From the NCBI GenBank assembly GCA_015493635.1, contig WGCU01000030.1, positions 1 to 49,792 of the forward strand: DNA of 49,792 nt, written 5' to 3'. The notes under the pieces are model-generated. The model worked only from the letters and a program-made list of their open reading frames with translations. It made no database searches and was not told the DNA's origin. This DNA comes from Spirochaetaceae bacterium (GTDB taxonomy: Bacteria; Spirochaetota; Spirochaetia; B11-G9). Shown piece after piece: positions 456 through 13,762 of the stretch (position 1 is its first letter; each line of letters starts with the position of its first letter). The translations under genes and the position numbers were made by a program.

Positions 456-2033
456 ATGAGTCATTATCATGTGGAAGTCCTTCCGCCGCGGCAGGACGTT
501 GAGAATCTTGAAGAAAGGTTTGAAAAGTTTTCAATAAAGTATAAACGGGTAATTGATGCAGGATATACTGTTTGTATTACTGACAATGCCATGGGAAATC
601 TTTCTTTTCAGGGTACAGAGATCATTGAAGAATACTCACTCCCTGTGCTGCCTGGAAAGGTATCAATTCATCTTAATACGTTTCATACAAAAAAAGAACT
701 TGATATAATTTTAAGTACTTGCATCAGTCTTGGAATAAATGATCTTCTTGTTATTTCCGGAGACGGAAGTATCCGGCTGCCGAAACTCACTCCCGGTGAT
801 CTGGGAATTACCGGAGTAAATGCCGTTACCTCCGTTGAGCTTATCGGATACATTAATTCAGAATATCCAGGAGTATTCCATATCGGTGCTGCCTTTAATC
901 CGTATGAACCGGAGGAAGAGGAGTTTGAAAAGCTGGACAGAAAAATTAAAGCAGGGGCGGCGTACATTATTACCCAGCCGGTAATAGAAAAGAATGCTGT
1001 TGTTGATAAGCTGATAAAAAACTATGACATACCGGTTGTTGTGGAAAACTGGATGAGTAAAAAACTTCATCTTCTTTCGGATTGTGTCGGTTATGAAATA
1101 CCTGAAGAAACCATCTATGATCCGGTGGAGGCTTTAAAAAAACTCCATGGGAATTATCCCGGAAGTGAAGTTTACCTTGCCATGATGAACTACCGCAGAC
1201 AGTTTGATCTGCTTGCAGATATTGAACGTAAATTTTACGGCGGATTGAAAATTGTTGTCTGTGTAAAACAGGTTCCCGGAACAACAAATGTCAAGATAGA
1301 TCCTGAAACAAAACGCCTTGTAAGAGACGGTGTTGAAATCATGATGAACCCCTTTGATACGTATGCTCTGGAGGAGGGGCTCCTCCTGCGCGAGAAACAC
1401 GGCGGAGAGGTTGTTGTTCTTTCCATGGGGCCATCAAGAGCAGATTTAACATTACGTGAAGCAGTTGCCTGCGGTGCAGATAAAGCTGTTCTGCTAAGCG
1501 GCCGAGCCTTTGGCGGTTCGGATACCTACGCAACAAGTTATGTTTTATCTAAAGGAATTGAAAAGATAGGGGATGTTGATCTTGTTATCTGCGGGAAACA
1601 GGCCGTAGACGGTGATACAGCACAGGTTGGGCCTGGGATAGCAGCACACCTCGGTTGGTCCCAGGCTACCTACGTATCAAAGCTGGTCGAATCAGGGTCA
1701 ACCTCTCTTACCGTAGAGAGAATGCATGAAACAGGAAACGATATCTGTGCAGTGCATCTTCCAGCAGTGCTTACTGTTTTGAAGGATATAAATACTCCAA
1801 GAATTCCAACATTAAAAGGAAGACTTGCCTCCCGGAAAACTGAAGTCCCTGTATGGGGAGTGGATGAGGTACAGGCTGATGAAGAAAAAATTGGATTGAA
1901 TGGTTCCCCGACAAGAGTGGTTAGTACAAGAAAACCTGATGCCCGGGACAAACACACCGTCGTTCTGAATAAACCTCCTGCTGAATCAGCGCAGGAACTT
2001 GTTGCCATTCTTAAATCGAAAGTAAAATTATAG
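456..2033 (+). CDS. Fusion of a MetF-like methylenetetrahydrofolate reductase domain with electron-transfer flavoprotein beta subunit
   Basis: One 525-residue reading frame carries two complete domains. Residues 1-262 resemble the MetF TIM barrel. The VEVLPPR segment (5-11) matches the family's FEFFPPR, with E7 at the catalytic glutamate position. LLVISGD (97-103) matches the LRGD region, GAAFNP (144-149) the mid-barrel loop, and GAAYIITQPV (167-176) the GAxYxxTQ motif. Residues 264-525 are a full EtfB, starting LKIVVCVKQVPGT and including the DGDTAQVGP nucleotide-binding motif; clostridial bifurcating EtfB proteins resemble it. Almost no linker separates the two. The start at 456 follows an AGAGGGG ribosome site at 443-449. 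etfA follows after 9 nt. MetF enzymes interconvert methylene- and methyl-THF using FAD, so the fusion suggests direct electron exchange between the pterin and ETF. That coupling, and any electron bifurcation, is inference. Confidence 0.85.
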   Translation: MSHYHVEVLPPRQDVENLEERFEKFSIKYKRVIDAGYTVCITDNAMGNLSFQGTEIIEEYSLPVLPGKVSIHLNTFHTKKELDIILSTCISLGINDLLVISGDGSIRLPKLTPGDLGITGVNAVTSVELIGYINSEYPGVFHIGAAFNPYEPEEEEFEKLDRKIKAGAAYIITQPVIEKNAVVDKLIKNYDIPVVVENWMSKKLHLLSDCVGYEIPEETIYDPVEALKKLHGNYPGSEVYLAMMNYRRQFDLLADIERKFYGGLKIVVCVKQVPGTTNVKIDPETKRLVRDGVEIMMNPFDTYALEEGLLLREKHGGEVVVLSMGPSRADLTLREAVACGADKAVLLSGRAFGGSDTYATSYVLSKGIEKIGDVDLVICGKQAVDGDTAQVGPGIAAHLGWSQATYVSKLVESGSTSLTVERMHETGNDICAVHLPAVLTVLKDINTPRIPTLKGRLASRKTEVPVWGVDEVQADEEKIGLNGSPTRVVSTRKPDARDKHTVVLNKPPAESAQELVAILKSKVKL

Positions 2034-2042
2034 GAGCATACA

Positions 2043-3071
2043 ATGAAGTTAACCGAAACAGTAACCGCAGATAATTTTAATGATGTATGGGTGCTTGCGG
2101 AAATTACGGAAGGCAAACTGCACAAAGTAACACAAGAACTTCTTGGCGTTGCAAGAAAGCTTGCTGATGATCTTTCAAAGCGGAAAAAGAGTGAAGTTGT
2201 CTGTCTTATTCTTGGAAAAGACCTAAAGAATAGTGTTGAAGAGAGTTTCCATTTGCGCGCGGATAAAGTGCTGATGATAGATGATCCTTCGCTGGAGTTT
2301 TTTAATGATGAAATCCATGGTGCGGTTATATCAAGGCTTATAGCCGGCTACAAACCTGAAATCCTTCTTTCTGGTGCAACAAGCAGAGGCCGGAGTATAA
2401 TGCCCCGTGTTGCCGTTCTATCGGAATGCGGTCTTACGGCTGACTGCACGGATCTTGCAATTGACAGTGAAACTGGACTCCTTCTCCAAACAAGAGCTGC
2501 CTACGGAGGTAATATTATCGCAACCATAAAATGTGAGGATTACCGTCCTCAGATGAGCACAGTACGGCAGGGGGTTTTTAAAGTACCAAAGAAAGACGGG
2601 GAGAGAAGTGGAGAAATAATAGTAGAAAAACTTCTTGAAAGTGAGAAAGAAGTATCGCTGACAGTACTGTCAGAAGAAAAAAACAGTGATGTAAAAGTGG
2701 ATCTCCATGAAGCAGATATCATTGTATCGGGAGGGAGGGGAGTACAGAGTTCTGAAGGTTTTGAAATTCTCAGAGAATTTGCTTCTCTTGTCGGCGGTGC
2801 TGTCGGTGCTAGCAGAGCAACTATCGATTCAGGATGGATTGCGTACCCCCACCAGGTCGGTCAGACAGGACAGACTGTTCAGCCTAAAATTTATATTGCC
2901 TGCGGTATCTCCGGACAAATCCAGCATCTTGTGGGAATGCAGTCCAGTAACTTTATAGTGGCAATAAACAAGGATCCTGATGCACCCATTATGCAGCTTG
3001 CCGATGTTGCTGTTGTCGGTGACCTTTTCGAGGTCGTTCCTGAAATTATTAAACTGTTAAAAGCAGGGTGA
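2043..3071 (+). CDS. etfA: Electron-transfer flavoprotein alpha subunit
   Basis: A 342-residue EtfA of normal length. The N-terminal domain contains the family signature around ATSRGR and LTADCTD. The C-terminal FAD domain contains GGRGVQS, the DSGW-YPHQVGQTG stretch and GISGQIQHLVGM, which bind FAD in this family. No extra ferredoxin domain is present. It starts 9 nt after the metF-etfB stop; the ribosome site (TAGGAG) overlaps that stop, so the two are co-transcribed and probably form one heterodimer. EtfA and EtfB normally pass electrons between a dehydrogenase and a quinone reductase or ferredoxin. Here the obvious dehydrogenase partner is the MetF domain fused to EtfB. The final electron acceptor cannot be read from the window. 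Confidence 0.95.
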   Translation: MKLTETVTADNFNDVWVLAEITEGKLHKVTQELLGVARKLADDLSKRKKSEVVCLILGKDLKNSVEESFHLRADKVLMIDDPSLEFFNDEIHGAVISRLIAGYKPEILLSGATSRGRSIMPRVAVLSECGLTADCTDLAIDSETGLLLQTRAAYGGNIIATIKCEDYRPQMSTVRQGVFKVPKKDGERSGEIIVEKLLESEKEVSLTVLSEEKNSDVKVDLHEADIIVSGGRGVQSSEGFEILREFASLVGGAVGASRATIDSGWIAYPHQVGQTGQTVQPKIYIACGISGQIQHLVGMQSSNFIVAINKDPDAPIMQLADVAVVGDLFEVVPEIIKLLKAG

Positions 3072-3160: not shown

Positions 3161-3796
3161 TTATTTTTCAAATACAGTTACAGCCGCCTCTGCTGCTGAT
3201 GCCGCGTCTGCAGAGTAGAGATCAGCACCGATGCTGTCGCAGTATTTCTGTGTAACCGGGGCACCCCCTATCATAATGGTAACATCATTTCTGATTCCGG
3301 CATCTTCAAAACCTTTTACAACTTTTTCCATCTGGGTCATGGTTGTCGTAAGAAGTGCGGAACAGCCTACAATTTTTGCATCATTTTCTTTTACAGCTTC
3401 GATAAACTTTTCTGCTGAAACATCGGTACCGACATCTATAACTTCGATCCCTTTCCCTTCCATCATCATACGGAGAAGGTTCTTGCCGATATCATGCAGA
3501 TCTCCCTTAACAGTTCCAATAACAGCCTTGCCTTTAGGTTCCGCTCCTTCTTCCACAAGAAGAGGTTTTAACAGGGCTGCTCCCATGTTCATGGCCCGTG
3601 CAGCAATCAGAACCTCAGGGACAAAAACCTCATTGTTTTTGAATTTAACACCAACGATGTCCATTCCGGGCATAAGTGCCTGTTCAAGAATGGACTGTGC
3701 ATCCATCCCTTCATCAATTGCCTGCTGAACAATTTCCACAACTTCCTGTGCTCTTCCTTTCTGAAGGGCTTCGGAACATTTTTCAAAATCTGCCAT
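3161..3796 (-). CDS. Methyltransferase-associated corrinoid (B12-binding) protein
   Basis: A 211-residue protein of the MtgC/MtmC/MttC family: a helical cap (about 1-88) followed by a Rossmann-like B12 domain. The cobalt-ligand motif DxHxxG is present as D99-L-H101-D-I-G104. The later conserved stretches GCSALLTTTM and IMIGGAPVT, which bind the nucleotide tail, are also present. Such proteins accept a methyl group on Co(I) from a donor-specific methyltransferase and hand it to a pterin methyltransferase, most likely the one at 5532. The start has a GGGAG ribosome site just upstream. A cobalamin riboswitch precedes it. The donor methyltransferase usually found beside such genes is absent here. 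Confidence 0.93.
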   Translation of the reverse strand: MADFEKCSEALQKGRAQEVVEIVQQAIDEGMDAQSILEQALMPGMDIVGVKFKNNEVFVPEVLIAARAMNMGAALLKPLLVEEGAEPKGKAVIGTVKGDLHDIGKNLLRMMMEGKGIEVIDVGTDVSAEKFIEAVKENDAKIVGCSALLTTTMTQMEKVVKGFEDAGIRNDVTIMIGGAPVTQKYCDSIGADLYSADAASAAEAAVTVFEK

Positions 3797-3850
3797 AAAG
3801 ACTCCCTTTAAAGTTTTTTTCAGACCTTAACCACGAAGTCATCTCTTGCC

Positions 3851-3990
3851 GGTGTACCAAAGTTTCCTGGCTTTCGGATCTACCACCCCCGTTCCTTCCC
3901 GGCTTACTGCCAGTGGTATCAACGGGTTTGTCCTCGATTACAGTGACGGGCTCGCAGAGGAATTTCACCTCGTTTCCTTTGAAATACACT
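3851..3990 (-). promoter_or_regulatory. Cobalamin riboswitch in the 5' leader of the corrinoid protein gene
   Basis: Read on the minus strand, the leader carries the hallmarks of the cobalamin aptamer in the right order: a GAGGTGAAATTCCTC arm, the AGCCCGTCACTGTA core, CCACTGGCAGTAAGCCGGGA, and the B12 box GAAAGCCAGGAAAC (3862-3875). Closing stem P1 forms between GUGUA (3985-3989) and UACAC (3852-3856). About 55 nt separate the aptamer from the start codon. I see no U-tract terminator there, so control is probably at translation. The ligand form (adenosyl-, methyl- or hydroxocobalamin) cannot be told by eye. Confidence 0.9.
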
Positions 3991-4068
3991 CTTTTACCAT
4001 GAACAGTATACGGCGGAATATGATGAGAGTATTTGATTTTTTTTTAATTTTTGTACTTATTTACCTTT

Positions 4069-5394
4069 TCATTTTTCGTGTATTTCCTGATTATCCGGAG
4101 GAACATAACCCCTTGTATCACGGTATTTCCCCGGTGTACTTCCTGTCACTTTTTTAAAAACCTTGGAGAAATAACTTTGGTCCTCATATCCTACCATACC
4201 GGCTATGTCAACAAGAGGTATGCTGCTGTTTCGAAGGAGAGTTTTACTTTCTTCAATTCTTAACCGGTTGAGATACTGGGTAAAACTGCTTCCTGTCTGT
4301 TCTTTGAAAACCTTGCTGAAATATGCAGGGCTCAAGTATACAGCTTCCGCAACATTATCCAGGGTTATTTTTTTTGTAAAGTTACTGTTAATAAAATCTA
4401 TTGCCTTGTAGATGATATCTGCATGTTTAACGGATTTTAACGTGAATACGAGATCTGTAAAACGTACTATTATCCTGGATAACCAGTATGCCAGTTCATC
4501 AACAGTGGAAAAGCTGTGGATTTTGTTGATATACTGATAGTTTAAACCGAAGATCTGTTCAACATCCGCCCCGCCTTCTAAAGCAGCCCGGGAAAGAAGA
4601 ACAATAAGCTCCAGAATACGGGACTTAACGATTTCGAAATCCTTGTTACTTGAAAAAAAGACACTGCCGAGCAGTTCATTTAATGTTTCTCTGGCCCCTG
4701 AAGCATCCGCCCGGGCAATCTGTTTGAGGAGTATCTTCTCTTTTTCCAGAGGATAACGGTGCCCCTCCATGAGGGATCCCTCCATAGTTTCGATATACTT
4801 GATATATTCACTGATTTTAAACTGCTGATTCAGAATTGCATCTTCGTGAGCAGATTGATCTTCTTCATCTTCATGCTCCAGGGTGGAAAGATACCGGGAG
4901 TTTATAAAAAGTAATTCTGCAAGACTGTTTACCCTGTCAGGAGAAACATAGGGGACAGTATCAAGAAGCTTATGAAAAATTTTTTCCTGCTGAGGAAGTA
5001 ATGTCTTTTCAAGCGACAGCCCTTTCATATCGAAATCCTTAGGATCGTAGGTAAAAACGGGTCCCCCTATAAGAGCTCCCTTTTTAAGACCATCATGGAA
5101 GATTGGAGATGTCCAATGCATCAATGACATGGGGCAAAAATATATATATTTTCCGCCGAAACGTTCGGCCTGGTACCCTGCATACAGATGTGCTTTTTTA
5201 CAATAATCCGGGAAGGTTTTTTCTTTTGAAACAGACGCACAGAAAGTACACAGTGTATGAGGGGAAGATCCCTCGACGATAAATCCGCTGGAATCAATAA
5301 CAGTACACTGAATATTTGTTGCTTTCTGATAGTTTTCTGCTGCTTTTATTTCTTTATCAAAAGTATACTCAGGTTCGAGGTTGTGATCGTTCAT
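4069..5394 (-). CDS. PocR-domain AraC-family transcription regulator
   Basis: A 441-residue regulator. Residues about 15-125 form a PocR sensory domain with clustered cysteines (C49-x2-C52, C65, C87) and a GALIGGPVF motif. The middle is helical. The C-terminal 100 residues are a double helix-turn-helix AraC domain, with two matching units around LSPAYFSKVFK and EDQSYFSKVFK. PocR/AraC proteins commonly sit beside corrinoid methyltransferase genes and sense small organic substrates. Here it is divergent from the methyltransferase operon at 5532 and upstream of the corrinoid gene, so both are likely targets. No Shine-Dalgarno sequence precedes the ATG; a -10 box lies 7 nt before it. Confidence 0.9.
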   Translation of the reverse strand: MNDHNLEPEYTFDKEIKAAENYQKATNIQCTVIDSSGFIVEGSSPHTLCTFCASVSKEKTFPDYCKKAHLYAGYQAERFGGKYIYFCPMSLMHWTSPIFHDGLKKGALIGGPVFTYDPKDFDMKGLSLEKTLLPQQEKIFHKLLDTVPYVSPDRVNSLAELLFINSRYLSTLEHEDEEDQSAHEDAILNQQFKISEYIKYIETMEGSLMEGHRYPLEKEKILLKQIARADASGARETLNELLGSVFFSSNKDFEIVKSRILELIVLLSRAALEGGADVEQIFGLNYQYINKIHSFSTVDELAYWLSRIIVRFTDLVFTLKSVKHADIIYKAIDFINSNFTKKITLDNVAEAVYLSPAYFSKVFKEQTGSSFTQYLNRLRIEESKTLLRNSSIPLVDIAGMVGYEDQSYFSKVFKKVTGSTPGKYRDTRGYVPPDNQEIHEK

Positions 5395-5531: not shown

Positions 5532-6401
5532 ATGGGTGATTTTGATTTAAAAATTATTGCAGAAAAAATAAACGATTCTGTTCCTTCAACACACAAACTT
5601 TTTGAAGCAGGTGATTTTGATGGTATTATTCAACTCGCGAAAAAGCAGGCTGATGAGGGAGCTGCATACATTGATGTAAATATTGGTCTAAGGGACCCCA
5701 GCCTTATGGGAGACCTTGTACGGAAAATTCAGGATGTTGTTTCAGTTCCACTGTGTATAGATTCACCGGACTTTGCAATTCAAAAGGCCGGACTTGAAGC
5801 GTACCTTCCCGAGAAAGCGGGAGGGCAGATGCCGCTGATAAACTCAATTTCAGAACTAAGACTGGATTTTGTTGATCTTGCAAAAGTACAACCGGCAAAA
5901 TTTATTGTTCTTTGTACAGAGAGTTCCATAAACGGAGACTTAAAACCTAATGAAACCGGAGAAGAGATTTTTAAAGCAGCTTTGAGGGTCCGTGAGGAAA
6001 TTATAAAAAATTGCAATTATATAACAAACGATGATTTATTTTTTGATCCCGGTATGGGACCGATTGGTGCGGATATGAACGGTCTGACAAACGCCACGAT
6101 TGACGGAGTAAAACTTATTCATGCATCAAAGGAGCTTAAAGGCTGCCATATGTCCGTTGGGCTGTCGAACTTCTCTGTTCAGCTGCCACCACGGACTGCT
6201 TCCGGAGCATTGATACGGACACCCCTGGAATCTGCTTTTTTGACATTGACAAACCCCCTGGGAATGGATCATGTTATCGGAAGTACAAAGAAGAAGTATA
6301 AAAAACTGGATCCTGATCATCCGGCAATGAAAGCAGTTACTGATATCCTGAAACTTACAGGGTTTGACAGGCTGACAAGGCTGCAGGAATTCTATATGTA
6401 A
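5532..6401 (+). CDS. Methylcorrinoid:tetrahydrofolate methyltransferase (pterin-binding, MtgA/AcsE/MtrH-like)
   Basis: A 289-residue TIM-barrel pterin-binding protein. The residues that hold the pterin in AcsE appear to be conserved: D77 in CIDSPD, N104 in LINSIS, D162 in FDPGMGP and N203 in GLSNFS. YIDVN (46-50) follows the usual first strand. Family members move a methyl group between methyl-THF and a corrinoid protein. With the corrinoid protein at 3161 and the activator just downstream, the likely direction is from methyl-corrinoid to THF, but the reverse is possible. The ribosome site AAAGGGGTG is well placed. It is the first gene of a three-gene run (5532-8611). Confidence 0.92.
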   Translation: MGDFDLKIIAEKINDSVPSTHKLFEAGDFDGIIQLAKKQADEGAAYIDVNIGLRDPSLMGDLVRKIQDVVSVPLCIDSPDFAIQKAGLEAYLPEKAGGQMPLINSISELRLDFVDLAKVQPAKFIVLCTESSINGDLKPNETGEEIFKAALRVREEIIKNCNYITNDDLFFDPGMGPIGADMNGLTNATIDGVKLIHASKELKGCHMSVGLSNFSVQLPPRTASGALIRTPLESAFLTLTNPLGMDHVIGSTKKKYKKLDPDHPAMKAVTDILKLTGFDRLTRLQEFYM

Positions 6402-6424: not shown

Positions 6425-8275
6425 ATGGATAATGCAGATGTCCTTGTAACAGTTAAAACTGATACAAAAAATATACCGATAGAAACCAAAACAGGAAAAA
6501 ATCTTCTTGATGTTTTATCCGGAGTGTACGATTTTCATATCGATGCTTCCTGCGGCGGGAAAGGAACATGCGGGAAGTGCAGGGTTTTTATTTCTGAAGG
6601 AAACAGTGCGGAAGTTCAGGAAGCGGAAAAAAGATTCCTGTCGCCTGCTGAAATGAAGAAAGGGATCCGTCTTGCCTGCCAGTTTACGATAGGTGAAAAC
6701 ATTACCGTCGAACTTGACGGAGCAAACCGAAGGGCTCAGATCAGGGAAGATCATACGAGCGTATTATTTGATTTTGATCCTGTTGTAAAAAAAAGATATC
6801 TGTCCCTTACTGAGCCTACTATTACGGATCAGCGTGATGATCTGACACGTCTATGTGATATGCTTAATATTAAAGATCTCTACATCCCTCTTTCAGTTAA
6901 ACGGGAACTGCCTTCTCTTCTGAGAAATTCTGATTTCAGTGTTACCGCTGTATATTCAGGAAGCCGTCTTATTGCAGTTGAAAAAGGTGACACAACGGAT
7001 ACCAATTACGGAATTGCGGTGGATGTCGGGACAACAACTGTTGTTGCTCATCTCCTCGATTTCACAAAGGGAAAGGTGATTGATACTGTTTCCGGGTTAA
7101 ACAGGCAGAAGGTAATGGGAGCAGATGTAATCTCCCGCATTGATTACTGTATAAAAAATTCCGATGGTCTTGAAAAATTACAGAATAAAATTTTGAACCA
7201 AATCGGGGAAATGTCTTTAACGCTTCTTGACAGAAACGGGATTGACAAAACCGATTTGTATTCGATTGTGTTTGCGGGGAATACCACCATGCTGCATCTC
7301 CTCGCAGCTATAAATCCCGCAGGAATTGCAGAAGCCCCATTCATTCCCGGTTTTTTGGGAAAGATGACCCATCTGTCAAAGGAAGTGGGCGATTTCCCTT
7401 TAAACTGTATGTTCTCTTTTATCCCTTCCATTTCTGGTTATGTCGGTGGAGATATTGTTGCAGGTATTCTTGCTTCAAAAATGTATGAGAGGGAGGAACT
7501 TTCCATCCTGATTGATGTTGGAACGAACGGAGAGATTGTTCTTGGAAATCGTGAGAAGCTTTACTACTGTTCAACCGCTGCCGGCCCTGCTTTTGAGGGT
7601 GCACATATTTCATGCGGAATGGGAGGCGTGGAAGGGGCCCTTGATACTGTCAGAATAGATGAGGGAGTTGTTCATTGTACAACAATAGGTAACGGTAAAC
7701 CGGCAGGAATCTGCGGTTCCGGAATTATTGATGCTGCCGCTGCTTTACGTACATCAGGCGTAGTAGATTTTACCGGCAGAATAAGTACTGCTGATGAAGT
7801 TGAAACAGAATCTACGAAACGGCTCCTGGAAACGAGGCTTGTTGATAAAGACGGGCCTGCTATTCTTCTTATTGACGCTGATAAAAGCGGGACAGGTGAA
7901 GCAATAGTATTTACTCAGCGGGATGTTCGGGAGGTTCAGCTTGCAAAGGCTGCAATAGCTGCCGGAGCTGCAACGCTTCTGCATGAATCAGGGAAGACCT
8001 TTGATGATATAGCACATCTGTTTATCGCGGGAGGATTCGGAAGCTACATCTCAGGAGAGAGTGCAGCTGCTATCGGTCTTATTCCTGCTGCTCTTCTGGA
8101 CCGGACTGAGTTTATCGGTAATACATCCGGTCAGGGTGCTGTAGCGTGCTCGTTTTCACAGAAGCAGTTTGATCAGTGTAAGAACATTGTTGCCCTGGCA
8201 ACGTACGTTGAACTTTCTTCAAATACGTTTTTCCAGGGAAAATATATGGATGATATGATTTTTCCTGAAGTGTAG
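6425..8275 (+). CDS. RACo-type reductive activator of corrinoid proteins (2Fe-2S ferredoxin plus ASKHA ATPase)
   Basis: A 616-residue protein. The N-terminal ferredoxin domain has the four cluster cysteines C43, C49, C52 and C85 in the C-x5-C-x2-C-x32-C spacing typical of RACo. A linker follows. The C-terminal ASKHA-fold ATPase starts near residue 197 at GIAVDVGTTT, and also contains VFAGNTTMLH, LIDVGTNGE and IAGGFG. RACo proteins use ATP to drive an electron into accidentally oxidised Co(II) corrinoid, restoring Co(I). The obvious client is the corrinoid protein at 3161. It starts 23 nt after the methyltransferase, with an AAGGGAAGG ribosome site, so the two are co-transcribed. Confidence 0.95.
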   Translation: MDNADVLVTVKTDTKNIPIETKTGKNLLDVLSGVYDFHIDASCGGKGTCGKCRVFISEGNSAEVQEAEKRFLSPAEMKKGIRLACQFTIGENITVELDGANRRAQIREDHTSVLFDFDPVVKKRYLSLTEPTITDQRDDLTRLCDMLNIKDLYIPLSVKRELPSLLRNSDFSVTAVYSGSRLIAVEKGDTTDTNYGIAVDVGTTTVVAHLLDFTKGKVIDTVSGLNRQKVMGADVISRIDYCIKNSDGLEKLQNKILNQIGEMSLTLLDRNGIDKTDLYSIVFAGNTTMLHLLAAINPAGIAEAPFIPGFLGKMTHLSKEVGDFPLNCMFSFIPSISGYVGGDIVAGILASKMYEREELSILIDVGTNGEIVLGNREKLYYCSTAAGPAFEGAHISCGMGGVEGALDTVRIDEGVVHCTTIGNGKPAGICGSGIIDAAAALRTSGVVDFTGRISTADEVETESTKRLLETRLVDKDGPAILLIDADKSGTGEAIVFTQRDVREVQLAKAAIAAGAATLLHESGKTFDDIAHLFIAGGFGSYISGESAAAIGLIPAALLDRTEFIGNTSGQGAVACSFSQKQFDQCKNIVALATYVELSSNTFFQGKYMDDMIFPEV

Positions 8276-8284
8276 GGGGAAAGT

Positions 8285-8611
8285 ATGAGTGTTGTAGAAG
8301 TGCAGGTGGACCCTGGAATATGTGGTCTTAAAAGCAGCATTACCGTTGAATCCAGCGACATGATGTCCGCAAAGGTATCTATCGAATCCGACTGTCCTGA
8401 TATACGGCAGATAGGTGAACATATCCAGGAGATTGATTCCATGAAGGATGTCTTTGCAAAACTGGGAGATTCCTCTGTGTACAAACTTGGCAAGGAGTTC
8501 TGTAGTCATGGAACGTGCCCTGTCCCCGGTGCCATTTTAAAAGGGGTGGAAGCTGCATGTGGGCTGGCTTTACCAAAGGACGTTTCCATACACATAGAGA
8601 AAAAGGATTAA
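8285..8611 (+). CDS. Small conserved protein of corrinoid methyltransferase clusters
   Basis: A 108-residue soluble protein, 9 nt after the RACo gene with a GGGGAAAG ribosome site, so it belongs to the same operon. It begins with a PGICGL segment and has several cysteines, including a C-SHGTC-PVPGAI stretch near residues 78-88 and another Cys near 95. I recall uncharacterised proteins like this next to corrinoid methyltransferase genes (DUF6951-like), but no reaction is known to me. A metal- or cluster-binding or corrinoid-handling helper is plausible from the cysteines and the position. Its stop overlaps the stop of the convergent permease gene by 3 nt. Confidence 0.75.
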   Translation: MSVVEVQVDPGICGLKSSITVESSDMMSAKVSIESDCPDIRQIGEHIQEIDSMKDVFAKLGDSSVYKLGKEFCSHGTCPVPGAILKGVEAACGLALPKDVSIHIEKKD

Positions 8612-12273: not shown

Positions 12274-12867
12274 TCAGGAAGCGTCATTAAACCCCACCAG
12301 AATGGTAGCAAGCTGATTATCTTTTGACAGTTTGTATTTATCCCGTAGATAATCATCTGAAAGTGATGAGGGACTGGCGGAAATAACATCGGTAATATCA
12401 AGGTCTTTATTTTCCAGTTCCGGAAATGCTACGGAGGGCATAAGAAAGTATGATGGAATGTGTTCCCTGTTTTCCCGCCGCTCCGGGAATAATACAAATC
12501 CGCTGCTGATGAATATATGTTCTTCCTGAAAAGAAACATTCCGGTTGAAAATCTCTTCTCCTACAATCCGGTACCATTTCCCGTCAAGGAATTTAACATT
12601 ATCATGAACTGCATCTGTCCCTTCCACTTCTTCAACCATCAGCACCGTTGGTGACGGAGGGGTCCTGAAGCTGGTATCTTTAAGGAGGGCAAGCACGCTG
12701 TTGCGGCGGAGTACATTTTTTACACCGGAGTTTATCAATTTTATGCTCTGCGAATGTTCATAGGATTCTTCAAGAGCAAGAATATCATTCTTGTTCTGTG
12801 CGGTTAACGGGACAACATCAATAACTCCCTTCAAGCTCGAAACAAGCGATTTGACCGTATCAGTCAT
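12274..12867 (-). CDS. Conserved-looking protein of unknown function, coupled to homocysteine methyltransferase
   Basis: A 197-residue soluble protein I do not recognise. There is no signal peptide, membrane segment or cofactor motif. It is rich in charged residues, with a mixed helix/strand character and a C-terminus rich in Ser and Asp. Its start codon lies 8 nt inside the end of the homocysteine S-methyltransferase gene, so translation is coupled and a role in the same pathway, such as methyl-group or B12 handling, is likely but unproven. Confidence 0.6.
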   Translation of the reverse strand: MTDTVKSLVSSLKGVIDVVPLTAQNKNDILALEESYEHSQSIKLINSGVKNVLRRNSVLALLKDTSFRTPPSPTVLMVEEVEGTDAVHDNVKFLDGKWYRIVGEEIFNRNVSFQEEHIFISSGFVLFPERRENREHIPSYFLMPSVAFPELENKDLDITDVISASPSSLSDDYLRDKYKLSKDNQLATILVGFNDAS

Positions 12868-13762
12868 GTTTTACCAGGGAGTCTACTGCCGTACGGATTG
12901 CCCGGATATGTTTGTCTGTTGTACCGCAGCATCCGCCGATGATGTTTACTCCTGCCTTAATCCAATAGGGATTCTGCTCTGCCATTTCTTCCGGAGTAGC
13001 GGGGAATACCGATATTCCGTCAACAAGTTCAGGAAGCCCGGCATTTGCCTGAATAATAACGGGAATGCCGGGAAGGATAGCTTTAATTTCTTTAATAATA
13101 TCTGTCATTCCCTCATATCCTTTTCCGCAGTTTGCCCCGACAATGTCTGCTCCTGCCTCCACCGCAGCAGCCGCGGCCTCCGACGGTCCGACTCCCATCA
13201 TTGTTTTAAATGGTCCCTGTACTGTCGGTTCATAGGTAAAGGTACTGATTATCTCGAGGTTTGTATTTTCTTTTACCGCCCGGATGGCTGCCAGGGCTTC
13301 GTCCAGGGCACTCATGGTTTCTATAACTGCCGCGTCTGCTCCCCCTTCTTCGAGGGCGATTGCCTGTTCTTTGAAAACCCGGTAGAAATCCTCTTCGGTA
13401 ACGTCTCCCATGAGGATCATTTTCCCGGTAGGTCCCATGGAACCTATAACCCAGTTATTCTCTCCGGCTGCTTCTCGGGAAATTTGTACCCCTGCTTTGT
13501 TTAATTCAGATACCCTGCCTCCGAGTCCGTAATATTCAAGTTTGTATCTGTTCCCTCCGAAGGTATTAGTTTCTATGATATTTGAACCTGCCTGTATGTA
13601 TGACAGCGCAACGTCGCGTACCAGATCCGGGTGTTCAACGTTCCATAGTTCAGGACATTCTCCCCCCTTTAATCCCCGTGATTGCAGGGCCGTTCCCCAT
13701 GCGCCGTCGGCAACAAGTACCGTACCTTTTTTAACCGCTTCAGCTATTCTGACTCTTGCCAT
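12860..13762 (-). CDS. Homocysteine S-methyltransferase-family protein (BHMT/MetH N-domain type)
   Basis: A 300-residue protein matching the Hcy-binding barrel of MetH and betaine-homocysteine methyltransferase. It has DGAWGTALQSRG at the N-terminus, ETNTFGGNRYKL, and the zinc-binding cysteines C212 (GANCGKG) and C278/C279 (GGCCGTT). These ligands hold zinc and homocysteine thiolate in the family. There is no folate, B12 or activation domain, so the methyl donor must be a free compound or a separate methyl-carrier protein. The corrinoid protein at 3161 is a candidate partner but is not in the same operon. RBS AGGAGC precedes the start. Confidence 0.9.
   Translation of the reverse strand: MARVRIAEAVKKGTVLVADGAWGTALQSRGLKGGECPELWNVEHPDLVRDVALSYIQAGSNIIETNTFGGNRYKLEYYGLGGRVSELNKAGVQISREAAGENNWVIGSMGPTGKMILMGDVTEEDFYRVFKEQAIALEEGGADAAVIETMSALDEALAAIRAVKENTNLEIISTFTYEPTVQGPFKTMMGVGPSEAAAAAVEAGADIVGANCGKGYEGMTDIIKEIKAILPGIPVIIQANAGLPELVDGISVFPATPEEMAEQNPYWIKAGVNIIGGCCGTTDKHIRAIRTAVDSLVKHD

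Follow-up and report, generated by a model that had tools for sequence, protein, structure and literature searches.

A question of long standing is how cells link methylene-THF reduction, or methyl-THF oxidation, to the conservation of energy. The CH2-/CH3-THF couple has an E0' of about -200 mV against -320 mV for NAD+, and methyl oxidation with NAD+ is therefore endergonic (+23 kJ/mol; PMC13391211). Four (or five) types of methylene-THF reductase (MTHFR) have been listed, none of them with an ETF (PMC8760232, PMC8515935, PMC13391211); of these, types I and III do not bifurcate, the ferredoxin use of type II costs energy, and for type IV the second acceptor has not been established (PMC8760232, PMC13391211). 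Because the bifurcating CH2-THF reaction lies near equilibrium (-12 to +2 kJ/mol; PMC6895022), it could run in either direction. Searches for a bifurcating MTHFR in C. ljungdahlii, M. thermoacetica and T. phaeum turned up other types instead (PMC8515935, PMC6895022), and a coupling of EtfAB to MTHFR, proposed for acetogens, was judged unlikely in C. ljungdahlii, which has no free etfAB (PMC8515935). For Hakuba Actinobacteria, NPL-UPA2 and T. phaeum the published enzymes are of MetVF/Hdr type and differ from the one discussed here.

The closest described system on the ETF side is Ldh-EtfAB (LctBCD) of A. woodii, in which the same uphill problem is solved for lactate by the parallel oxidation of ferredoxin (PMC9232219). 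Mutagenesis of this complex showed that the EtfB motifs DGDTAQVGP (beta-FAD), RxFxG (NAD+) and SPT, together with R205 of EtfA, are needed for confurcation, and DGDTAQVGP is reported to be missing from non-bifurcating ETFs (PMC9232219).

The window analyzed here, a stretch of 49,792 nucleotides from a Spirochaetaceae bacterium, contains an ORF at 456-2033 (+ strand) that begins with ATG, has no internal stops and encodes 525 amino acids. It joins a MetF barrel to an EtfB and is followed by etfA:

456..1241 (+): MetF-type methylene-THF reductase domain, TIM barrel, residues 1-262
1242..1247 (+): fusion junction GGA TTG, the former EtfB start region with no Shine-Dalgarno sequence left, residues 263-264
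1245..2033 (+): EtfB domain with bifurcating-type beta-FAD and NAD motifs, residues 264-525
2043..3071 (+): EtfA, 342 amino acids, with ETF and ETF_alpha domains; D134/R151 correspond to LctC D189/R205

The sequence-only reading had described a complete MetF-like barrel with three quoted motifs, running with essentially no linker at about residue 262 into a complete EtfB, with EtfA downstream. All three motifs are present, the junction reads ERKFYGG/LKIVVCVKQ at residues 262-264, and EtfA follows as described. The N-terminal half matches Pfam MTHFR (PF02219) over residues 4-179 with 39.8 bits (cut-off 24) and the C-terminal half matches Pfam ETF (PF01012) over residues 288-471 with 147 bits. 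An AF2 model of the fusion as a single chain (73-row alignment, mean pLDDT 88.7, pTM 0.67) shows an eight-strand barrel whose last helix (246-261) leads straight into beta-1 of EtfB. In Foldseek searches each half finds its own matches: MTHFRs for the barrel (7th5 from T. thermophilus with E 2e-10 and TMt 0.64) and, for the EtfB half, LctB of Ldh-EtfAB from A. woodii (E 4e-26).

The MetF half retains its catalytic and flavin-site residues (a loss of FAD-binding residues had been named as a possible objection): E7, T42, H72, D103, K163 and Q174 correspond to E28, T59, H88, D120, K172 and Q183 of E. coli MTHFR and are invariant in 38 MetFs, with the equivalence of T42 and H72 placed by motif because the automatic alignment is weak there. 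The E. coli sequence in this alignment was checked by the known numbering of its E28 and Q183. R118 of the E. coli enzyme is replaced, D165 is changed to E, and the F223/Q219 segment (NADH/folate stacking) is shortened in a part where the alignment is weak. The cassette MetF reaches none of the NCBIfam MTHFR equivalog cut-offs (type I, TIGR00676, 31.7 bits vs 293.7), and of the MetVF-type MetFs of three host genomes, one aligns with it over part of the length at about 28% identity while the other two give no detectable match. The same reaction is expected as for MTHFR types I-IV and X, whose catalytic residues it shares, but the partner differs, being an ETF and not MetV, RnfC2, HdrABC-MvhD or a NuoEFG-like protein (PMC8760232, PMC8515935). 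The list of known MetF partners given earlier (MetV, RnfC2, HdrABC-MvhD) agrees with these papers, and the statement that no MetF-ETF fusion had been described holds for the openly licensed papers searched up to July 2026, in which we found no description of either the fusion or the cassette discussed below. The best reading is that MetF-EtfBA falls outside the four or five published types.

The ETF half carries the published bifurcation motifs. The window EtfB contains RAFGG (350-354), DGDTAQVGP (385-393) and SPT (484-486), and EtfA has R151 in QTRAAYGGN at the position of LctC R205, which contacts N5 of beta-FAD. The window EtfBA thus keeps every residue that mutagenesis ties to bifurcation in Ldh-EtfAB, which lends support to the earlier suggestion of a bifurcating complex. 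Among the cassette EtfBs of relatives, DGDTAQVGP occurs in 63 of 67, RxFxG in 55 and GSPT in 53; the EtfA Arg motif is present in 64 of 66 cassettes, and the two without it (L068, L049) both end inside etfA. Bifurcating complexes account for all of the top five PDB matches, for EtfB as well as for EtfA. Ldh-EtfAB shares with the cassette the beta-FAD, NAD and SPT motifs, the EtfA Arg and a dedicated flavoenzyme partner encoded next door (PMC9232219), and the EtfB half finds its best match in LctB, both in sequence and in fold. The substrate couples are also of nearly the same potential, with CH3-THF at -200 mV. The lactate couple lies at about -190 mV. In contrast to Ldh-EtfAB, the partner in the window is a MetF barrel in place of an Ldh of the FAD-oxidase type and is fused to EtfB, and EtfA, which aligns only from LctC residue 71 on, has no counterpart of the N-terminal ferredoxin domain.

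The association of MetF with EtfB is widespread. Scanning the genome collection with a profile brought up 164 relatives, of which the best 80 were kept. In 72 of these etfB directly follows metF, with a gap of no more than 133 nt, an overlap or a fusion, an association beyond chance; etfA normally comes next where the contig continues. These cassettes are found in Spirochaetota, Bacillota, Atribacterota, Planctomycetota, Actinomycetota and other phyla. Within the phylum of the window the distribution is patchy, since a strict search of 393 genomes (E 1e-50) returned only the window's own genome and one other. Viral contigs yielded no relatives, and plasmids only distant homocysteine methyltransferase-MTHFRs. 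In one locus (L036 10332-11354, - strand; the same locus as L039) MetF has an Ala/Ser/Lys-rich repetitive C-terminal tail of about 70 residues that ends in a 4-nt overlap with etfB, and in several spirochaete cassettes (L031 6454-8637, also L064, L069 and L082) a hydantoinase/oxoprolinase-like protein of about 700 amino acids is encoded directly after etfA.

All 67 cassette EtfBs form one clade (support 0.96-0.97) in a tree with 23 other EtfBs from the window's own genome and other genomes of the class and three PDB bifurcators; T. maritima EtfABCX is the nearest reference. The cassette EtfBA belongs to the same class as Bcd-EtfAB, CarCDE, EtfABCX and other bifurcating ETFs, which differ in having another high-potential partner. 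Tree distances of MetF, EtfB and EtfA correlate with r of 0.82-0.85, to which shared host ancestry contributes. Eight of the best 80 relatives are without EtfB, one of them at a contig edge. The other seven (L100, L107, L110, L112, L113, L115 and L116) are mostly of PVC type, and in six of them MetF adjoins Fhs or FolD. These ETF-less members are not one group in the MetF tree and most branch towards the outgroup side; tentatively, the association with ETF seems to have arisen within the MetF family (FastTree trees with limited outgroups). Because PVC-type relatives keep MetF without ETF, a cassette-type MetF can work with another partner. In L037, also of the mostly PVC-type set without EtfBA, HydAB-like NADH-linked hydrogenase subunits are encoded near MetF, as they are at a distance in L112, which suggests another electron partner there.

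Beyond etfA the window carries further features, among them a set for corrinoid methyl transfer:

3161..3796 (-): MtgC/MtbC-like corrinoid protein (B12-binding cap and B12-binding domains)
3843..4021 (-): cobalamin riboswitch (RF00174, 78.4 bits) ahead of the corrinoid-protein gene
4069..5394 (-): PocR-domain AraC-type regulator
5532..6401 (+): pterin-binding methyltransferase of the methyl-THF:corrinoid kind, below the NCBIfam cut-off
6425..8275 (+): RACo-type reductive activator of corrinoid proteins
8285..8611 (+): DUF6951 small protein, directly after RACo
12860-13762: homocysteine S-methyltransferase (S-methyl_trans)

The corrinoid protein is probably the methyl carrier of the same pathway as MetF-EtfBA. 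Of the 72 loci, 56 have a methyltransferase of the methyl-THF:corrinoid type within 6 kb of the cassette, as do 22 of the 23 that are full-length; two of these locus methyltransferases pass the curated NF005719 cut-off (341 and 367 vs 259). Other neighbours across the 72 loci are Fhs (24), MtgC (12) and FolD (8). A cobalamin riboswitch ahead of the MtgC-like gene also occurs in L041 (9401-9583, - strand), at the same place as in the window. The set resembles MtgBC/MtaBC-type systems in that an MtgC-like protein, a methyl-THF:corrinoid-type methyltransferase and RACo adjoin the cassette, but neither MttB nor MtgB was found in the window's own genome, which is 98% complete. The only URO-D protein of this genome (L128 7001-8200, - strand), considered as the methyl-donor enzyme and rejected, sits in a sugar/amino-sugar catabolic cluster, an odd setting for the family.

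The own genome contains Fhs, a full rnf cluster and a separate 620-residue homocysteine methyltransferase-MTHFR (for methionine); searches for CODH/ACS and for MetV (PF12225) found neither, and MetV is likewise absent from the cassette loci. Two other etf pairs have an LDH-type oxidase and an acyl-CoA dehydrogenase as partners, and as each thus has a partner of its own, MetF is left for the cassette ETF. The LDH-type pair (C38; L123 4205-7441, - strand) adjoins an FAD-oxidase-type dehydrogenase, and its EtfB has DGDTGQVGP. Among 50 cassette hosts tested, six have CODH/ACS and 13 MttB, while MetV scored above the cut-off in three, with one further sub-cut-off match, so that at least 46 are without it. 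Four CODH/ACS-bearing hosts carry the cassette and no detectable MetV, absences that are provisional in MAGs: L079/L136, L084/L137, L097/L135 and L051, from Peptococcaceae, Actinomycetota, Treponema and one labelled Akkermansia. The Wood-Ljungdahl clusters of L079 and L084 have acs and fhs and no metVF.

We consider it probable that MetF-EtfB and EtfA form a methylene-THF reductase that couples the CH2-/CH3-THF pair to NAD+ and ferredoxin by bifurcation or confurcation. The MetF barrel would interconvert methyl-THF and methylene-THF, and electrons would move between its flavin and the alpha-FAD of an ETF of bifurcating type, in the manner of Ldh in the A. woodii complex. During methyl oxidation, electrons would leave MetF by way of the mobile alpha-FAD and reach the beta-FAD of EtfB, where they would be joined with electrons from reduced ferredoxin to form NADH; in reverse, electrons from NADH would be split between methylene-THF and ferredoxin. 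The fusion would hold MetF and EtfB at 1:1, and most relatives would build the same complex from separate adjacent genes. In the own genome the more likely direction is the oxidation of methyl groups arriving as methyl-THF, since CODH/ACS is lacking and Fhs, Rnf and an adjacent corrinoid methyl-transfer set are present; Rnf and other enzymes would balance ferredoxin and NADH. In the few CODH/ACS hosts without MetV, the complex could serve acetogenesis. What speaks against this proposal is that a methyl-donor methyltransferase was not found in the own genome, that RxFxG and SPT vary in some relatives, that PVC-type relatives have this MetF but no ETF, and that the bifurcating MTHFR sought in C. 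ljungdahlii, M. thermoacetica and T. phaeum did not turn up.

The sequence-only reading had put the MetF-EtfB fusion at the centre. That the window encodes both in one frame holds, but the fusion is a late detail of a widespread metF-etfB-etfA cassette and not its essence. Genomes of the same family carry metF and etfB as two genes that overlap by 4 nt or are set apart by a short spacer, and every close relative is unfused. One could thus suspect that the single frame is a sequencing or assembly error, the more so as a one-base change in the AAATTTT stretch upstream of the junction would bring a TGA across the TTG, over the EtfB start, like the 4-nt overlaps of relatives. However, comparison of the junction with unfused neighbours, as had been proposed, showed that the 72 EtfB starts at other loci are ATG (69) or GTG (3), all with anti-Shine-Dalgarno pairing of -5 kcal/mol or stronger, whereas the window has TTG, no Shine-Dalgarno sequence and -1.7 kcal/mol. 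That the EtfB start signal has decayed speaks for a genuine fusion. The other fusion, L076 from a Bacillota MAG (535 amino acids), retains no EtfB start codon at all and sits elsewhere in the MetF tree; the two are independent fusions of metF and etfB. An error at the window junction is therefore quite unlikely, and the interpretation of the cassette is independent of whether the fusion is real.

A MetF-ETF complex in which the ETF is a plain, non-bifurcating carrier to quinone, ferredoxin, flavodoxin or another redox partner would suit methyl-THF oxidation at -200 mV, for which quinone or another mid-potential acceptor is adequate; the motif variation in relatives fits it too, as does the position of T. 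maritima EtfABCX, a quinone-linked bifurcating complex, as nearest reference. We regard it as rather unlikely, because DGDTAQVGP, which non-bifurcating ETFs are reported to lack, and the EtfA Arg that contacts N5 of beta-FAD are invariant or nearly so, and because no EtfCX or ETF-QO genes lie beside the window cassette and none were recognized among the recurrent neighbour families, as judged from sequence starts only. That the barrel acts on another substrate, or serves ordinary methionine synthesis, is very unlikely: its distance from known MTHFRs (low Pfam score, far under the equivalog cut-offs) and the homocysteine S-methyltransferase at 12860-13762 would fit, but the catalytic and flavin residues are kept, the strongest linkage is to the methyl-THF:corrinoid-type methyltransferase, joined in some loci by Fhs and FolD, and a separate 620-residue enzyme for methionine is present in the genome. 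A split methionine synthase made of the corrinoid protein, the pterin methyltransferase and the S-methyl_trans protein is kept only as a rival: in relatives the cassette is paired with the methyl-THF:corrinoid-type methyltransferase, and at some loci with Fhs/FolD, and this pairing and the genome's own homocysteine methyltransferase-MTHFR count against it.

Returning to the coupled methylene-THF reductase, what is new is a combination of known modules, with a function that would answer the open question. The cassette resembles the electron-bifurcating MTHFR proposed in acetogen research, an enzyme that was never found. We lean slightly towards MetF-EtfBA being a further MTHFR type, the bifurcating one called for in acetogen energetics, reversible and widespread in uncultivated anaerobes, and a candidate MTHFR in the CODH/ACS genomes without MetV (L051, L079, L084, L097), with the reaction CH2-THF + 2 NADH + 2 Fd(ox) = CH3-THF + 2 NAD+ + 2 Fd(red). 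A conserved three-gene cassette, twice fused, makes the hypothesis of an ETF-coupled MTHFR testable. If true, it would explain how methyl groups are handled without MetV in many uncultivated anaerobes, including Treponema and Atribacterota MAGs.
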